This document shows, piece after piece, positions 54,806-62,614 of a stretch of DNA of 64,000 nt. The translations under genes were made by a program, and so were the position numbers. The notes below the pieces were generated by a model. That model was not told the DNA's origin and made no database searches. It saw only the letters and a program-made list of their open reading frames with translations. Where the stretch lies: positions 2,505,001-2,569,000 of the forward strand of contig NZ_CP121685.1 in assembly GCF_029760915.1 (NCBI RefSeq). The letters are read 5' to 3'. The DNA comes from Olleya sp. YS. GTDB taxonomy: Bacteria > Bacteroidota > Bacteroidia > Flavobacteriales > Flavobacteriaceae. Each line of letters starts with the position of its first letter. Positions within the stretch are counted from its first letter, which is position 1.

Positions 54806-56098
54806 TTACTTTAATAAAAATGCTTTTAAATGGTTGTAACTACTAATTTTAGTCGCCACTTTGTTTTTACCCATAACCGATTGTATTTGCTTTGGTAACG
54901 ATTGTTTTTCTATAATAACGTCTTCAACCACATCTAAAAACTTGGTTGGATGTGCAGTTTCTAAAAACACACAATGTGCATTAGGATTAGATTTTAAATA
55001 GGCTTTACATCCTAAATATCCAACTGCTCCATGTGGATCTGCTACGTAGTTATAGTTGTCGTATATCTCTTTTAAAGCCACCTTAGTTTCGTCGTCTGTA
55101 AAACTATAAGAGGATAAATTGTCCTTTAAACTATTAAAGTTGTTGTTATAGATTTCTTGGATACGAATAAAATTACTCGGATTGCCAACATCCATAGCAT
55201 TACTAATAGTTTGAACAGATGGTTTTGGATTATAAATTTCTGTTTTTAGATAATTAGTTACAACGTTATTTTGGTTATTTGACGCAATAAAATGTTTAAT
55301 AGGTAAGCCTAATTGTTGTGCCATCATACCAGCACACACGTTTCCAAAGTTTCCACTTGGTACAGAAAATACAATCTCTTTATGTGTATTATGTAATTGT
55401 TTGTAGGCAAACATAAAGTAGAGTAGTTGTGGTAACCATCGTGCTACATTAATAGAGTTTGCAGAGGTCAATTGCATTTTGCTAGTTAATTCCTCATCTA
55501 AAAACGCACGTTTAACCATGTCTTGGCAATCGTCAAAAACACCATCGACTTCTAATGCTTTAATGTTTTGTCCTAACGTAGTCAGTTGTTTTTCTTGTAT
55601 CTCACTTACCTTTCCAGAAGGATAAAGGATAACTACATTAACACCTTTAACGCCCAAAAACCCATTGGCAACTGCACCACCTGTATCACCAGAAGTGGCT
55701 ACTAAAACCGTCACTTCGTTAGTATTATTTTGATTAAAATAACCTAAACATCTAGCCATAAATCGTGCGCCAACATCTTTAAAAGCCATAGTTGGTCCAT
55801 GAAACAACTCTAAAGTAGATATATTGTCGTTTAATTTTACCACAGGAAAATCAAACGATAACGTTTCCTTAATAATTGTTTTTAAGACATCTTTTGGGAT
55901 ATCTGGAAAGACAAATTGTTGTAAGGCTTCAAAAGCAATCTCGTTATAACTTAAATCATAAATATTTTCAAAAAATGAAGCAGGTAAAGGTGTAATACGT
56001 TCAGGAAAATATAAACCTTTATCTGGTGCTAATCCTTTGATGACTGCATCTTTAAACGTGGTGTTTGGTGCTTTATGGTTGAGACTGTAGTAATTCAT
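54806..56098 (-). CDS. thrC: Threonine synthase
   Basis: The 430-residue protein is fold-type II PLP. The PLP lysine lies in LFHGPTMAFKDVGARFM (about 98-114), the phosphate loop is TSGDTGGAVANGF, and the length fits the E. coli-type enzyme. It turns O-phosphohomoserine to threonine. It is third in the minus-strand run thrA-thrB-thrC. A dispersed repeat remnant lies between thrB and thrC. Confidence 0.95.
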   Translation of the reverse strand: MNYYSLNHKAPNTTFKDAVIKGLAPDKGLYFPERITPLPASFFENIYDLSYNEIAFEALQQFVFPDIPKDVLKTIIKETLSFDFPVVKLNDNISTLELFHGPTMAFKDVGARFMARCLGYFNQNNTNEVTVLVATSGDTGGAVANGFLGVKGVNVVILYPSGKVSEIQEKQLTTLGQNIKALEVDGVFDDCQDMVKRAFLDEELTSKMQLTSANSINVARWLPQLLYFMFAYKQLHNTHKEIVFSVPSGNFGNVCAGMMAQQLGLPIKHFIASNNQNNVVTNYLKTEIYNPKPSVQTISNAMDVGNPSNFIRIQEIYNNNFNSLKDNLSSYSFTDDETKVALKEIYDNYNYVADPHGAVGYLGCKAYLKSNPNAHCVFLETAHPTKFLDVVEDVIIEKQSLPKQIQSVMGKNKVATKISSYNHLKAFLLK

Positions 56099-56186: not shown

Positions 56187-57116
56187 TTATTCATTTTTCA
56201 TTATTCTAATTCCTTCTGTATTAATTTTAGACACATAAGTATTAAAATTAATCTCTGTTTTAGAATAAACTTTTTGCATCGCTTTAGCAACAGCTTCAGC
56301 AGTTTTTTTACTTTTAGATAATGTGAATATAGAAGGTCCAGAACCTGAAATTCCTGCTCCTAAAGCACCTGCTTTTATAACTTCAGATTTAACCACATCA
56401 AAATTTGGAATCAGTTGACTTCTGTAAGGTTCAACCACAACATCTTTTAATGCATTGCTTAATAAATTATAATTATTGGTGTGTAATGCATGAACTAAAC
56501 TTCCAACGTTAGACCATTGGGTTATGGCGTCTTGTAACGGAATGTTTTTTGGTAATATAGCACGTGCTTCAGACGTTTTAATTTCTATTTGAGGATGAAT
56601 GATGGTTGCATATAAATCGTCAGGAGTTGGTAATTGTAACACTTGTAATGGTGTTGTGCTTTTAACTAAAGTGAAACCACCAAAAATACCTGGTGCAATA
56701 TTATCTGCATGCTCACAACCACTAGCAATAGCTTCTCCTTTCATAGCAAACTGGGTGAGTTGTGTCTTATTATATGGTCGTCCTAATAACTCATTAATAG
56801 CAAAAACACTACCAGAAGCACTCGCAGAACTGCTACCAATACCACTTCCAGGTTTAATGTTTTTATAGATGTCTATCTCAAAACCACAATCTGGTTGTGC
56901 ATCATTATATAAGGCTAATGCAGATACACTTGCAACATTCTTATCAGTTTCAAAAGGTAAATCAGCTCCAACAATTTTAGAGATTCTAATCCCTTTTTCA
57001 GTCGTTTTTCTAATCACCATGTCGTCACCAATAGTGTCTAAGCAAAAGCCCAAGACGTCAAATCCACAGGAAACATTAGCAACAGTTGCTGGTGAAAATA
57101 TTTTGATTTCGTTCAT
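56187..57116 (-). CDS. thrB: Homoserine kinase
   Basis: I start it at 57116 (MNEIKIFSPATVANVSCG), the usual GHMP-kinase beginning, not at the in-frame ATG 57200, which would add 28 unlikely residues. The 309-residue protein has the ATP-binding motif KPGSGIGSSSASASG (about 84-98), typical of the GHMP family. A C-terminal GAGISGSGPSIF segment is the third motif. It phosphorylates homoserine for ThrC. Confidence 0.95.
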   Translation of the reverse strand: MNEIKIFSPATVANVSCGFDVLGFCLDTIGDDMVIRKTTEKGIRISKIVGADLPFETDKNVASVSALALYNDAQPDCGFEIDIYKNIKPGSGIGSSSASASGSVFAINELLGRPYNKTQLTQFAMKGEAIASGCEHADNIAPGIFGGFTLVKSTTPLQVLQLPTPDDLYATIIHPQIEIKTSEARAILPKNIPLQDAITQWSNVGSLVHALHTNNYNLLSNALKDVVVEPYRSQLIPNFDVVKSEVIKAGALGAGISGSGPSIFTLSKSKKTAEAVAKAMQKVYSKTEINFNTYVSKINTEGIRIMKNE

Positions 57117-57141
57117 GTTTTTTACCACGAATTCACGAATG

Positions 57142-57158
57142 TTAATTTCCGCGAAAGC
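57142..57158. repeat. Copy 2 of the 17-base dispersed motif
   Basis: This is the exact copy of 39026-39042 (TTAATTTCCGCGAAAGC), in the thrA-thrB gap. Just before it is ACCACGAATTCACGAAT, another motif common in intergenic repeats of this group; further left the gap (57200-57257) has short CTGCAACTG/ACTGCAAACT type repeats. Confidence 0.6.
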
Positions 57159-57257
57159 ATTATTTTTAATTTTAATGTCTACAAGGTATTTAAACCTCAC
57201 AAGAGTATTTATTTGAGTGAGTCACTGACTACTGCAACTGAACACTGCAAACTTATT

Positions 57258-59699
57258 TTATTTATTTCCAATTCTGATAATATCTGCAAACAAACCAGAC
57301 GCAGTAACATCTGCTCCAGCACCAGCACCTTTAACAATTAACGGTTGTTCTGGATAGCGTTGTGTGTAAAACATGACAATGTTATCCTTTCCCTTTAAAT
57401 TGTAAAACGGATGACCTTCTGGCACTTCTTGTAAGCCTACTTTTGCTTTACCATTTTTATATTCAGCAACATATTTTAACTGATAATTATTTGCTTTTGC
57501 AGATGCGTAAAGCTTTTGAAAATGAGCCTCGTCTGTAATTAAAGTTTCATAAAAATCATCTACAGAATCACTTTCTAAATTAGCTTTAGTTAAAAACGAC
57601 TCATTTACAATGTCATCTATTTCCATTGGTACTCCGTTTTCACGAGCTAATATTAATATTTTTCTAGCCACATCAATTCCGCTTAAATCAATGCGAGGAT
57701 CTGGTTCTGTGTACCCTTCAAATTGTGCTTGCTTAACGGTATCATGAAAATTCTTTTTATCACTAAAATTATTAAAGACAAAATTTAAGCTTCCAGACAA
57801 TACTGCTTGAATACTTATCACTTTGTCACCTGAAGCAACTAAGTTATTTAGTGTATTAATTATTGGTAATCCTGCACCAACATTAGTTTCGTATAAAAAT
57901 GGCGCATTGTATTTAAGTGATAAATCTTGTAAGTTTTTATACTCGGCATAACTCCCAGAACAGGCTATTTTATTACACGCAACCACAGCTACACTTTGCT
58001 TTAAATAGTTTTCGTAAACTTTAGAAACGTCATGGTTTGCAGTTATGTCTACAAAAATGCTATTTCTTAAGTTTAACTCGATGACTTTTTGGTAGAAACC
58101 TTCAATACTTGATTTATCAGCATGATGAAATTGTGCTGCCCAATTGTTTAAATCGATTCCTTTTGGATTAAAAATCATTTTTCTAGAATTGGCCATACCC
58201 ACAATTTTGACATCCAATTTTAAGTTTTTCTTTAAAAAAGAATGTTGCTGCTGGATTTGATCGATTAGTTTTTCACCAACATTACCAATTCCAGTAATAA
58301 AGACATTAAGTTGTTTGGTGTTAACTTCAAAAAAGCGTTCGTGAACACTATTTAAAGCTTTTTTTACATCACTTGCATTGATTACTGCAGAGATGTTTTT
58401 TTCTGAAGCACCTTGTGCTATCGCTCTGACATTAATATTGTTTTTACCAAGCGTGCTAAATAATTTACCACTAATACCTTGATGACTTTTCATATTGTCG
58501 CCAATTAAGGCTATAATGGATAAGCCTTTTTCAACAGTAATAGGATTGATTTTATGTAAAGAGATTTCGTTTTCAAAGGTAGAATTTATGGCTTGTTCTG
58601 CTTGTTCTGCATTGCTTTCATCAATACCAAAACAAATTGAGTGTTCTGAAGATGCTTGCGTAATAAAAATAATGTTGATTTTTTCGTTAGCTAAAGTTTC
58701 AAACAAACGTTTTGAAAACCCAGGTATACCAACCATTCCGCTACCTTCTAAAGTCAATAATGCAACATTGTCAATATGACTAATACCTTTTACAGTTAAA
58801 TTGTTTCCATTATTTTGATTAGAAATAATTGTACCAGTAGCTTCTGGTTGTAACGTGTTTTTTATATGTATTGGGATTGCTAAATCTAAAACTGGTTGAA
58901 CCGTTGGAGGGTATAGTACTTTAGCACCAAAATGTGACAATTCCATAGCCTCTTGATACGATAAATTAGAAATCGGATAGGCTTGTTTTACTAATTTTGG
59001 ATTAGTTGTATACATACCACTAACGTCTGTCCAGATTTCTAGCTGTTCCACCTTTAGAGCTGCTGCAATAATAGCAGCAGTAAAGTCTGATCCACCACGT
59101 CCTAAAGTGGTCGTTTCACCCAATTGTGATTTTGATACAAAACCTGGAAGTATAGTAATTTGCTGATTTGCTTTATTAAAGTAATCGGTTATATTTTTGT
59201 TAGTCACTTTGTAATTAACTTCTGCTTTTGAGAAATTAGAATTAGTTATAATAAGCTCTTGACTATTTTTTAAAACTGTATTTAAACCCATATCTTCCAT
59301 TGTTTTAGCAATGATAAACGAAGATAGTAGCTCACCAAAACTGACTAGCTTATCTGAGGTTTTTGGAGATAATTCGTTAATTAAATAGATGCCATTTAGC
59401 AGTTGCTTTAAGTCGTTAAATTTGTTTTCTACTTCAGATAAAATAGATTTAGAATTTGGTGCTAATTCTTCAATAGCTTTAAAATGAATGGATTTAATAG
59501 TATCAAATACTGTCAAATACGCTTCATCTTTTTGTTTTGCTAATTCTCCAGCCTGTAATAGCTTATCAGTTATTCCACCAATAGCAGAAACCACACAAAC
59601 TATAGGACTAGTCAATGCTTCTTTTTGAAGAATATCGATGACTCTTTTTATGTTTTGAGCTGAACCTACAGAGGTTCCGCCAAATTTTAATACTTTCAT
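57258..59699 (-). CDS. thrA: Bifunctional aspartokinase / homoserine dehydrogenase
   Basis: The 813-residue fusion has an aspartokinase domain (KFGGTSVGSAQN at the start, GRGGSDFTA about 204-212), two ACT-like regulatory regions (about 320-465), and a homoserine dehydrogenase domain with FITGIGNVGEKLIDQI (about 476) and YTEPDPRIDLSGIDVARK. It catalyses the first and third steps of threonine/methionine synthesis, normally feedback-regulated by threonine through ACT domains. It is first structural gene of thrA-thrB-thrC; a candidate leader peptide lies 66 bp upstream. Confidence 0.96.
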   Translation of the reverse strand: MKVLKFGGTSVGSAQNIKRVIDILQKEALTSPIVCVVSAIGGITDKLLQAGELAKQKDEAYLTVFDTIKSIHFKAIEELAPNSKSILSEVENKFNDLKQLLNGIYLINELSPKTSDKLVSFGELLSSFIIAKTMEDMGLNTVLKNSQELIITNSNFSKAEVNYKVTNKNITDYFNKANQQITILPGFVSKSQLGETTTLGRGGSDFTAAIIAAALKVEQLEIWTDVSGMYTTNPKLVKQAYPISNLSYQEAMELSHFGAKVLYPPTVQPVLDLAIPIHIKNTLQPEATGTIISNQNNGNNLTVKGISHIDNVALLTLEGSGMVGIPGFSKRLFETLANEKINIIFITQASSEHSICFGIDESNAEQAEQAINSTFENEISLHKINPITVEKGLSIIALIGDNMKSHQGISGKLFSTLGKNNINVRAIAQGASEKNISAVINASDVKKALNSVHERFFEVNTKQLNVFITGIGNVGEKLIDQIQQQHSFLKKNLKLDVKIVGMANSRKMIFNPKGIDLNNWAAQFHHADKSSIEGFYQKVIELNLRNSIFVDITANHDVSKVYENYLKQSVAVVACNKIACSGSYAEYKNLQDLSLKYNAPFLYETNVGAGLPIINTLNNLVASGDKVISIQAVLSGSLNFVFNNFSDKKNFHDTVKQAQFEGYTEPDPRIDLSGIDVARKILILARENGVPMEIDDIVNESFLTKANLESDSVDDFYETLITDEAHFQKLYASAKANNYQLKYVAEYKNGKAKVGLQEVPEGHPFYNLKGKDNIVMFYTQRYPEQPLIVKGAGAGADVTASGLFADIIRIGNK

Positions 59700-59765
59700 T
59701 GTTTTAATATTTATTATGGGACTTGTAGCTTTTAAAACTACTCAAACAGGAGAAATATATAGCGA

Positions 59766-59822
59766 TTAACCCAAAAGGGTAATGGTCATAATTGATGTAA
59801 AAATAGTATGTGTTTTTTTCAT
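59766..59822 (-). CDS. thrL: Candidate thr operon leader peptide (18 aa)
   Basis: A minus-strand ORF begins 66 bp upstream of thrA and encodes MKKTHTIFTSIMTITLLG. Five Thr and three Ile occur in 18 residues, the composition expected of a leader that senses threonine and isoleucine supply (E. coli thrL has the same logic). The ATG lies about 13 bases from the predicted transcription start (promoter element 59842-59849). I do not see a U-tract terminator before thrA; only weak stems (CCC/GGG at the end of the ORF and AUUAUG/CAUAAU) could compete. Real leader function is inference. Confidence 0.55.
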   Translation of the reverse strand: MKKTHTIFTSIMTITLLG

Positions 59823-59841
59823 TTTATGCGTCTATACTTAT

Positions 59842-59849
59842 CAAATGTA
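59842..59849 (-). promoter_or_regulatory. -7 element for thrL-thrA
   Basis: TACATTTG on the minus strand matches TAnnTTTG exactly. A TTG lies 25 bases upstream, longer than the usual 19-23. The start would fall near 59835. Confidence 0.5.
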
Positions 59850-59926
59850 TTACTTTTACTTTTATGAAAAAAACCAAAAGTCAATTTTTATGAGATTGAC
59901 AATTAATAGCCAATATTTTATTAAAA

Positions 59927-61483
59927 ATGAAAATATTTTCGAAAGAACAAATTTATGAAGGAGATGCATTAACCTCTAAAAAACAAGGGATTACTTCTAC
60001 CGAGTTGATGGAGCGTGCAGGAACACAAATTTTTAATTGGTTGCATTTGCGTATGCAAGGTGCACAAGTACCCATTCATATTTTTTGTGGTATTGGTAAT
60101 AATGGAGGTGATGGATTAGTAGTTGCTAGACATTTAATTACGCATGGTTATAATGTTAAAACCTATATAGTTAACTATAGTAAAACACGATCTAAAGACT
60201 TTTTAGTTAATTACGAGCGTATTAAAAGCACGACTAAAGATTGGCCTTTATTACTAAATGATGCTAAAGAATTACCAGAAATAGACGAAAAAGATATCAT
60301 TGTTGATGCTATATTTGGTATTGGTTTAAATAGACCCATTGTGACATGGGTGAAGCAATTATTTAATCATTTTAGAGATACAAAAGCATTTGTCTTATCT
60401 ATTGATGTACCCTCTGGATTAGAAACAGATGCAGTGCCAAAAGATGAAGAATGTGTTGTAAATGCTGGATATACATTAAGTTTTCAGACTCCAAAGCTAG
60501 TTTTTTTTCTACCAGAAACAGCCAAATATACTGTACAATGGGAAGTTTTAGATATTGGGATTGATCCAGAATACTTATTTACAACGCCAACAGAAGCTGA
60601 TTTAATTGGTAAAAACGAAGTTTTACCAATTTACAAACCAAGAGAAAAGTACAGTCATAAAGGTCATTTTGGTCATGCGTTAGTTATAGGTGGAAGTTAT
60701 GGTAAAATTGGTGCAGTCACACTTGCCAGTCGTGGAGTTTTAACCATTGGAGCTGGAAAAGTGACAGCTTACATGCCTAAATGTGGTTATATACCTTTAC
60801 AATCGAGTTTTCCTGAAGCAATGGTTATTACTGATATTGATGATGAAAAACTAACAAAAATAGACTTTAAGATAGAGCCTGATGTTGTGGCATTTGGAGT
60901 AGGAGCTGGAACAGATACCAAAACAATGTCTGCTTTTGAAGCGTTTTTAAAAACAAACACCAAACCATTAGTAATTGATGCAGATGGAATAAATATATTG
61001 GCTAAAAAGAAAACACTATTAAAATTACTACCTGAAAACACAGTGTTAACACCACATCCAAAAGAGTTGGAAGGATTAATAGGAAAGTGGACAGACGATT
61101 TTGATAAACTTAAAAAAACTAAAGCCTTATCTAAAAAATACAAATGTATAGTCGTAATAAAAGGTGCAAATACCATAACGGTTTATGGTGATAAATTATA
61201 TGTTAACGCTACAGGAAATCCAAGTTTAGCTACTGCAGGAACAGGAGATGTATTAACAGGAATGATAACAGGATTAATCGCTCAAGGTTATGATGCGTTA
61301 GCAGCAAGCATTTTTGGTGTGTATTTACATGGTAAATCTGCAGATTTGCTAGTAGAAGAGTTAGGTTATCAAAGCTTTATTGCTAGTCATGTTATTGAAG
61401 GTATTCCGTTAGCTTATTTAGATTTATTTAAACAACCAGAACCACCACAAGTGGAAGAGGCTAATGAAAAAGAAAAGAAATAG
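59927..61483 (+). CDS. nnr: Bifunctional NAD(P)HX epimerase / ADP-dependent dehydratase
   Basis: The 518-residue fusion has an N-terminal YjeF_N epimerase domain (about 1-215; FCGIGNNGGDGLVVARHL) and a C-terminal ribokinase-like dehydratase (about 230-500; GHALVIGGSYGKIGA, VIDADGINIL, and LATAGTGDVLTGMITGLI). It repairs hydrated NADH/NADPH made by heat or dehydrogenase side reactions. It is a single gene, divergent from the thr operon and ended by a strong terminator. Confidence 0.94.
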   Translation: MKIFSKEQIYEGDALTSKKQGITSTELMERAGTQIFNWLHLRMQGAQVPIHIFCGIGNNGGDGLVVARHLITHGYNVKTYIVNYSKTRSKDFLVNYERIKSTTKDWPLLLNDAKELPEIDEKDIIVDAIFGIGLNRPIVTWVKQLFNHFRDTKAFVLSIDVPSGLETDAVPKDEECVVNAGYTLSFQTPKLVFFLPETAKYTVQWEVLDIGIDPEYLFTTPTEADLIGKNEVLPIYKPREKYSHKGHFGHALVIGGSYGKIGAVTLASRGVLTIGAGKVTAYMPKCGYIPLQSSFPEAMVITDIDDEKLTKIDFKIEPDVVAFGVGAGTDTKTMSAFEAFLKTNTKPLVIDADGINILAKKKTLLKLLPENTVLTPHPKELEGLIGKWTDDFDKLKKTKALSKKYKCIVVIKGANTITVYGDKLYVNATGNPSLATAGTGDVLTGMITGLIAQGYDALAASIFGVYLHGKSADLLVEELGYQSFIASHVIEGIPLAYLDLFKQPEPPQVEEANEKEKK

Positions 61484-61510
61484 TTTTAGTGCTGTATAAT
61501 AGAATTCAAT

Positions 61511-61543
61511 AAAAAAAGCGAACTTAAAAGTTCGCTTTTTTTA
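61511..61543. terminator. Bidirectional intrinsic terminator
   Basis: AAAAAAAGCGAACTT and AGTTCGCTTTTTTT form the stem with a three-base loop, flanked by A and T runs, between nnr and the convergent thioredoxin-like gene. Confidence 0.88.
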
Positions 61544-61561
61544 TTATGCAGTATTATTTTT

Positions 61562-62614
61562 TTAAATTCCGTAAGCCTCAAAATAGGCTTTTATATTTGG
61601 ATAAGAAGGTCTTGGTGCATCAGCATCTGCAATATTACCATTTGGATCTATTAAAATAAATCTTGGAATCGAGTTAATTTTATAACCCGTTACGAAATCA
61701 GATTCAAACGCTTTATCAGAAAATAACTGAATTCCACTCATCTCTTTGTCTTCAATCATCTTTCTCCAACCTTCTTTTGCTAGTGCAAAAGATTCTTCTT
61801 TACTGTTAGCTCTATAACCTCTTCCGTTATCTGTAGATATACTTACAAAAGCAATATTTTTTCCTTCGTAATCTTTTTCTAAAGTTTGTAATGACGGTAT
61901 TTCACCAATACAAGGTCCACACCAAGTAGCCCAAACATCAATATACACATATTTTCCTTTTAAGTCAGATAAAGATGTTGTTCCACCTTTAAAGTTTTCA
62001 TAGTTTTCAAACGTAGGTGATGGTGACCCAACAGGAAATTGCTCTTTTAATTTAATACTTCCTAAAACATAACTTTTTAAACCATTTAAATTTGGTTCTA
62101 CTTGTTTTATAGAATTAGCAATAATAGTAGAATCTACAGCTTTATTTTTATCATAAAATGCTAACATTTGTTTTTTAATGTCTTCTATTTTGCTCTCTAA
62201 TCCAGTAGAATCTAAGCTTTTTAAAGCTTCAATATCTACTAGTTTATCTTCAAATTTATTTTTTTCGATTAAAAAGTTAGATTTTTCTGCACCTTTACCA
62301 GAAAATGAAGCAGATTCTTTAAAATCTTTTGCATCAATTGTCATTTTAACATCCATATCATTTTCTAAAAAGATATAAGTTTGACTTTTCCCATCATACA
62401 CGCCATATAATCCTGGATTAACTTTTAAGGTATCACTAAAAGTACCATCTTCATTAACTTTAATAGTTTTATTAAATGTTCTTCCTTGATAAACAACTAA
62501 AGAATCACTGTTTTTATTTTCTATTTTACCAGAAAAGGTTGCATAATCTTTTGGTGCTTCTTTTTTGCAAGCAATTATAGATACTATTGCTAAACAAACT
62601 AATAGTTTTTTCAT
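61562..62614 (-). CDS. DUF4369-type TlpA-like thioredoxin-fold lipoprotein
   Basis: I start it at 62614 (MKKLLVCLAIV); an in-frame ATG at 62638 would overlap the -7 element at 62636-62643. The 350-residue protein has a lipoprotein signal with lipobox SIIAC (Cys about 16). A DUF4369-like domain covers about 25-120, and a C-terminal TlpA/AhpC-TSA thioredoxin fold has the active site WCGPC in VDVWATWCGPCIGEIP. It is probably anchored in the envelope and active in thiol-disulfide exchange. It is a single gene. Confidence 0.88.
   Translation of the reverse strand: MKKLLVCLAIVSIIACKKEAPKDYATFSGKIENKNSDSLVVYQGRTFNKTIKVNEDGTFSDTLKVNPGLYGVYDGKSQTYIFLENDMDVKMTIDAKDFKESASFSGKGAEKSNFLIEKNKFEDKLVDIEALKSLDSTGLESKIEDIKKQMLAFYDKNKAVDSTIIANSIKQVEPNLNGLKSYVLGSIKLKEQFPVGSPSPTFENYENFKGGTTSLSDLKGKYVYIDVWATWCGPCIGEIPSLQTLEKDYEGKNIAFVSISTDNGRGYRANSKEESFALAKEGWRKMIEDKEMSGIQLFSDKAFESDFVTGYKINSIPRFILIDPNGNIADADAPRPSYPNIKAYFEAYGI

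Follow-up and report, generated by a model that had tools for sequence, protein, structure and literature searches.

Textbook accounts of leader-peptide attenuation usually end in an intrinsic terminator as the output, and in enterobacteria a Thr/Ile-rich leader peptide, thrL, lies directly ahead of thrABC. The thrA locus of Olleya sp. YS raises the question of whether a leader of this kind acts in Bacteroidota and, if so, through which output. In the window, the whole stretch of 64,000 nucleotides that was analysed, a leader peptide ORF translated as MKKTHTIFTSIMTITLLG runs from 59822 to 59766 on the minus strand, with 5 Thr and 3 Ile among its 18 codons, and 66 nt separate its end from the ATG of thrA (59699). 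An earlier note on this DNA had described such an ORF at this distance 5' of thrA, and the description was confirmed, with the minus strand, which it had not given, now added. The TAnnTTTG element that it had placed just before the ORF was also found. It reads TACATTTG (59849-59842, minus strand), is promoter-like (-7) and sits 19 nt 5' of the leader ATG. Directly behind the leader, and likewise on the minus strand, lie thrA (57258-59699, bifunctional aspartate kinase/homoserine dehydrogenase I, 813 aa), thrB (56187-57200, homoserine kinase, listed from a GTG and scanned from 57119) and thrC (54806-56098, threonine synthase), all three with NCBIfam scores above the cut-off, so that the Thr/Ile-rich ORF precedes an operon that makes threonine. 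The nearest relatives of this thrA were found in Olleya species.

By composition alone, the leader ORF is unusual but not unique. With a threshold of an ATG-started ORF of 10-30 codons containing at least 5 Thr and at least 8 Thr plus Ile, the 227-nt intergenic region, when shuffled 20,000 times, yielded a passing ORF in 28 cases. Of all 686 ORFs of that length on the two strands of the window, nested starts included, 7 passed as well. These seven correspond to 4 places, the thrA leader among them, and the similar Thr/Ile-rich short ORFs at the 3 other places would be in line with a chance ORF that has no function. It is therefore conservation that decides whether the leader is real.

Upstream regions of thrA were collected from the genus (10 genomes, one with a partial gene), from named relatives (80 loci kept of 223), from a family sample (90 genomes; 137 of the 149 sampled genomes matched) and from a phylum sample (49 regions; 155 of the 198 sampled genomes matched). 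The pooled set held 208 distinct regions, including two of a paralogous enzyme (L014 and L015), and the rows L013 (partial gene), L188 and L233 (start unreadable in both) were left out. In L014 and L015 the second aspartate kinase/homoserine dehydrogenase-like gene lies in a longer frame (1132 aa) and carries no Thr leader. A palindrome of the form ACCC-loop-GGGT, named P2, was present in 153 of the 208 regions. In the window it is ACCCTTTTGGGT (59769-59780, minus strand), which extends over the last codons of the leader, with its ACC in frame as the last Thr codon. The 153 loci were obtained with a corrected filter; a first filter, in which perfect palindromes were left out, gave 139 loci and is the basis of the Thr/Ile profile by codon, the P3 survey, the total GGG pairing, the thrA-start pairing, the pair tests, the gap lengths, the G/C profile, the pairing with the leader 5' part and the TAnnTTTG count.

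An ATG-started ORF reads in frame through the ACC (Thr) codon of P2 in 145 of the 153 palindrome loci, so that the Thr/Ile leader is kept far beyond the genus. In these 145 loci, the six codons ahead of P2 (870 in all) are 48.9% Thr and 22.0% Ile, while the other two frames over the same codons give 1.1% Thr and 2.3% Ile, and 0% Thr and 1.5% Ile, respectively. Every Thr codon is used within the last ten codons (ACT 204, ACA 196, ACC 72, ACG 48), which indicates that the amino acid is kept and not a string of bases. Enrichment in a single frame together with synonymous codons means that the ORF has been maintained as a coding sequence. The frequency of Thr and Ile peaks at codons -6 to -1, where a stalled ribosome would cover ACCC. 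At 18 codons the leader of Olleya is among the shorter ones, given a median of 34 codons in the first-filter set, and TAnnTTTG occurs 30-170 nt 5' of P2 in 90 of 103 non-redundant loci versus a shuffled mean of 9.9. This frame-specific conservation, along with the promoter-like element in front and the matching operon behind, makes it extremely improbable that the ORF arose by chance, and the comparison of sequences argues strongly that a Thr/Ile leader peptide serves as an amino-acid sensor before thrABC, which we regard as very probable.

The alignment that the earlier note had proposed was thus borne out with respect to the conserved short ORF, and the lack of conservation in close relatives that would have refuted the note was not observed. 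The covarying stems that were to accompany the ORF did not emerge from the pooled loci, where there is little variation in the core of the palindrome. Because the search for P2 relied on its sequence, the constancy of that core is not independent evidence. Among six pairs tested outside the P2 core (first filter), only -1:+1 exceeded the shuffles. A small hairpin inside the leader ORF, P1, recurs with changed letters in several relatives, such as L129, L131-L133 and L036 (for example CAACTC..GAGTTG and CAGCTC..GAGCTG), and it is absent or unclear in Olleya.

If the leader senses amino acids, the next question is what it acts upon. A terminator-pattern scan of 59600-60000 gave no match, which agrees with the earlier observation that no U-tract terminator lies between the ORF and thrA. 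From P2, included, to thrA, terminator-like sites were found in 3 of the 153 palindrome loci versus a shuffled mean of 5.0, and behind P2 only, in 0 of the 139 loci of the first filter. The same scan was applied to hisG leaders, for which 30 loci were fetched of 33 matches in 41 genomes (L235-L264, the locus of the own genome being L236). Upstream of hisG in each of them, the most His-rich short ORF was picked and contains 2 to 6 His codons, and the scan was positive in 30 of 30, the own genome included. There, the hisG leader (MNFIQSHHHHFHICTQAN) has a hairpin of -13.3 kcal/mol that ends in a T-tract. The absence of a terminator is therefore a property of the thr leader and not of transcription in the family.

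These counts also bear on a weak or unusual intrinsic terminator, in which P2 or a second hairpin with an AU-rich tail would end transcription. The second hairpin, P3, is AT-rich (GTAGTTTTAAAAGCTAC, 59725-59741, minus strand), folds in the minimum free energy structure, has no U-tract behind it and occurs before thrA in part of the loci (first filter). The RNA behind P2 is AU-rich, and P2 plus its tail passes the terminator pattern in L140, L209 and L211; however, 3 in 153 is below the shuffled mean, at least 6 T within the 8 nt behind P2 were seen in only 1 of 153 loci, and the same family has strong U-tract terminators at every hisG locus scanned. An intrinsic terminator was therefore rejected on the scan of the window locus and on the counts in the palindrome loci, and even its weak or unusual form is very unlikely. 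The thr leader probably resembles a thr attenuator in its working, but it lacks the terminator that belongs to the classical family. As far as can be judged from sequence, this points to a different off switch, and the proposal of the earlier note that Bacteroidota could use the amino-acid logic of thrL with another RNA switch is supported by a conserved leader and by the difference between 3/153 at thrA and 30/30 at hisG.

Classical thrA attenuators do exist among the relatives. In the family sample, L181 and L199 have a Thr-rich leader and a terminator without the palindrome, and in the phylum sample L220, L225 and L228 have a Thr-rich leader and a terminator-like site, again without it. Arms 1:2, 2:3 and a 3:4 terminator are present in L181, L199, L225 and L228, with values in L199 of -14.1, -10.1 and -10.0 kcal/mol, respectively. 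These four have in common with the Olleya thr leader the Thr-rich ORF, arms 1:2 and a 2:3 pairing that is a candidate in Olleya; unlike it, they have a U-tract terminator and no ACCC..GGGT palindrome. In the palindrome type, arms 1 and 2 are retained along with a candidate arm 3, and 3:4 is missing. Read in the simplest way, arm 3 would itself be the off signal when exposed.

The region that would provide arm 3 follows the stop codon. In 139 of 145 loci this codon begins at a distance of 6, 12 or 15 nt, counted from where P2 starts. In the window, a conserved AU-rich motif, TATATATT (59754-59761, minus strand), lies behind the stop codon and is followed by a C/U-rich, G-poor stretch, TCTCCTG (59747-59753, minus strand), which is proposed to be the off signal and to pair alternatively with the GGGT arm. 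ATAT was counted across the relatives at +5 to +24 behind P2 in 77% of 122 non-redundant loci versus 16% of shuffled sequences, and UCCG in the C-rich post-stop stretch in 33% versus 5% of the same set; the window locus has AUAU and lacks UCCG. In 108 loci of the first filter, G made up 1-3% at +7 to +18 and C 35-44% at +16 to +21. The G-poverty near the start codon may simply serve translation initiation.

When the ACCC arm was left out of the folding, to mimic its cover by a ribosome, GGG paired with +12 to +30 at 0.53, versus 0.26 in shuffled sequences (n=122). The total downstream pairing of the GGG arm was not above that of shuffles (0.84 versus 0.83, p 0.13, first filter). At the window locus P2 folds with -5.3 kcal/mol and the 2:3 pairing of the GGGT arm with the C/U stretch reaches only -0.3 kcal/mol, and the fold of the window locus was no more stable than its shuffles (z -0.59). 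A long-range pairing of the post-stop element with the 5' part of the leader was rejected as a candidate, with -8.76 versus -8.80 kcal/mol for shuffled sequences (n=108). ACGGAC near the leader start matches a post-stop GTCCGT in L200, L204 and L213; the match is not general.

The sequences themselves show a conserved leader with Thr/Ile enrichment in one frame, P2, no terminator and a conserved post-stop element. From these features we infer a chain of stalling, alternative pairing in the cell and Rho action. When Thr or Ile is scarce, the ribosome would stall on the Thr/Ile codons just ahead of P2 and cover the ACCC arm; the GGGU arm, now free, could then mask the C/U-rich stretch that lies 12-30 nt behind P2 by pairing with it, and thrABC would be transcribed. 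With a good supply, the ribosome would finish and leave, P2 would form and the C/U-rich stretch would stay exposed, whereupon Rho, as the most likely agent, would end transcription ahead of thrA or in its first part. We put forward this full chain, a ribosome-mediated thrABC attenuator that senses charged tRNA-Thr and tRNA-Ile with an output other than an intrinsic terminator, as a tentative but serious possibility. Of the factors that read exposed C-rich, G-poor RNA, Rho is the best known, and its gene is present in the own genome. RNA of this kind is found behind the leader stop, a feature that is not specific to Rho. The gap between the leader stop and thrA has a median of 80 nt (103 loci, first filter), which leaves Rho little room for loading and acting ahead of thrA translation and thus speaks against Rho.

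With the same sensor, the exposed AUAU/C-rich stretch might instead be read by another factor, either an RNase that cuts the leader or an RNA-binding protein. Its conservation lies in sequence rather more than in pairing, as the AUAU and UCCG frequencies indicate, and the failure of the stretch to pair generally with the leader 5' part agrees with this reading, which we nevertheless consider rather doubtful. Equally speculative is a broader view that would cover the phylum, an amino-acid attenuator in which the terminator is replaced by a conserved single-stranded code (AUAU, often UCCG) that is read in trans and is masked or exposed by the GGGU arm, terminator and code being interchangeable outputs on one Thr/Ile sensor.

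The short median gap and the lack of a terminator would also suit a translational output, in which the position of the ribosome alters folding at the thrA start without premature termination. In PMC6847099, Bacteroidota mRNAs are described as lacking Shine-Dalgarno sequences and initiation in Flavobacterium johnsoniae as tuned by mRNA structure, and a few single pairing registers between the post-stop stretch and the thrA codons exceeded shuffles, at about 0.05. Overall, however, pairing of the element with the thrA start was not clearly above that of shuffled gaps (0.188 versus 0.177, n=129), and it was rejected as a candidate structure; the thrA start was also less paired than in shuffles (unpaired 0.53 versus 0.48), and gaps longer than 120 nt occur in 5 of 103 non-redundant loci, which fits a local switch poorly unless thrA starts are misplaced. 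A translational output is rather unlikely.

The enterobacterial element (RF00506, Thr_leader) and the Olleya locus are alike in having a Thr/Ile-rich leader before thrABC and differ in that the latter has no intrinsic terminator. The Rfam Thr_leader model gave no match at 59700-59850, even at E<=1, and five loci searched against Rfam at gathering scores gave no match either, so that the regulatory element is new to Rfam at the places searched. A hairpin-rich stretch between two genes at 61413-61594 of the window holds a cluster of sub-threshold Rfam matches, including a lone Thr_leader match at 61413-61544 (27.3 bits, cut-off 55), which is probably a terminator hairpin. A model of the element, R1, which recovers 4 of 17 genera and thus has a limited reach, found one place in the own genome, before thrA (150 of 1843 candidates scored); a weak second match appeared in G005 (E 0.5). 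Among 30 loci inspected, no clear case of a branched-chain leader before ilvD was seen.

In the open-access literature searched we found no description of a thrA leader of Bacteroidota; a comparative study by Vitreschak et al. in 2004 reportedly mentions attenuators in Bacteroidetes, and a thr leader may already be noted there. Escherichia coli tnaC senses free tryptophan through the nascent peptide, whereas the Olleya thr leader is proposed to sense codon starvation ahead of the stop. In tnaC the leader peptide governs the access of Rho behind its stop codon, according to a statement cited in PMC1262725. The mycobacterial cys leaders have, in the account given by that paper, a leader ORF and no terminator hairpin, with Rho proposed; they concern another amino acid and another phylum, and their polyY motifs are there called not conserved, while the thr post-stop element is conserved. 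PMC9723704 outlines how amino-acid operons of Flavobacterium psychrophilum are attenuated through leader peptides and names pheA and hisG 5' elements as conserved, the one at hisG being described for this species and its relatives. The his and thr leaders of Flavobacteriaceae are both leader peptides before amino-acid operons in the same genome, and the his leader has the U-tract terminator. One genome therefore has a classical attenuator at his and, at thr, a probable attenuator that lacks the terminator. This makes the output step testable with an internal control, and the thr leader could reveal the way in which Rho or some other factor acts in the phylum.

The palindrome, the conserved post-stop element, the relatives with classical terminators and the relatives without a leader all go beyond the earlier note, and the thr leader palindrome recurs across much of the sampled Bacteroidota. 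It was found in 74 of 90 loci of the family sample (one unreadable), and a Thr-rich leader with the palindrome in 28 of 49 regions of the phylum sample under a looser filter, eight of which (L148, L150-L154, L215 and L219) belong to one family outside the class. The looser filter scanned the last 140 nt for terminators, and its rows with both palindrome and terminator include matches inside the leader. In L147 a GC-rich, terminator-looking stretch lies behind the leader, and the palindrome assigned to this locus may reflect a stray match. The palindrome is present in 61 of the 80 named loci and absent from 19. In 14 of these 19 a TAnnTTT[GC] element starts 37-66 nt 5' of thrA, in 2 it lies at 21 nt, and 3 have none within 75 nt; its closeness to thrA looks like the outcome of a leader loss that spared the promoter. 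On a quick thrA tree, 5 state changes are required, at least 4 of them forced by well-supported branches. L022-L028, L033-L035, L037, L038 and others are leaderless, with a TAnnTTTG-like element near the thrA ATG, the arrangement that deletion of a leader would leave, and L030, from the same region of the tree, retains its leader.
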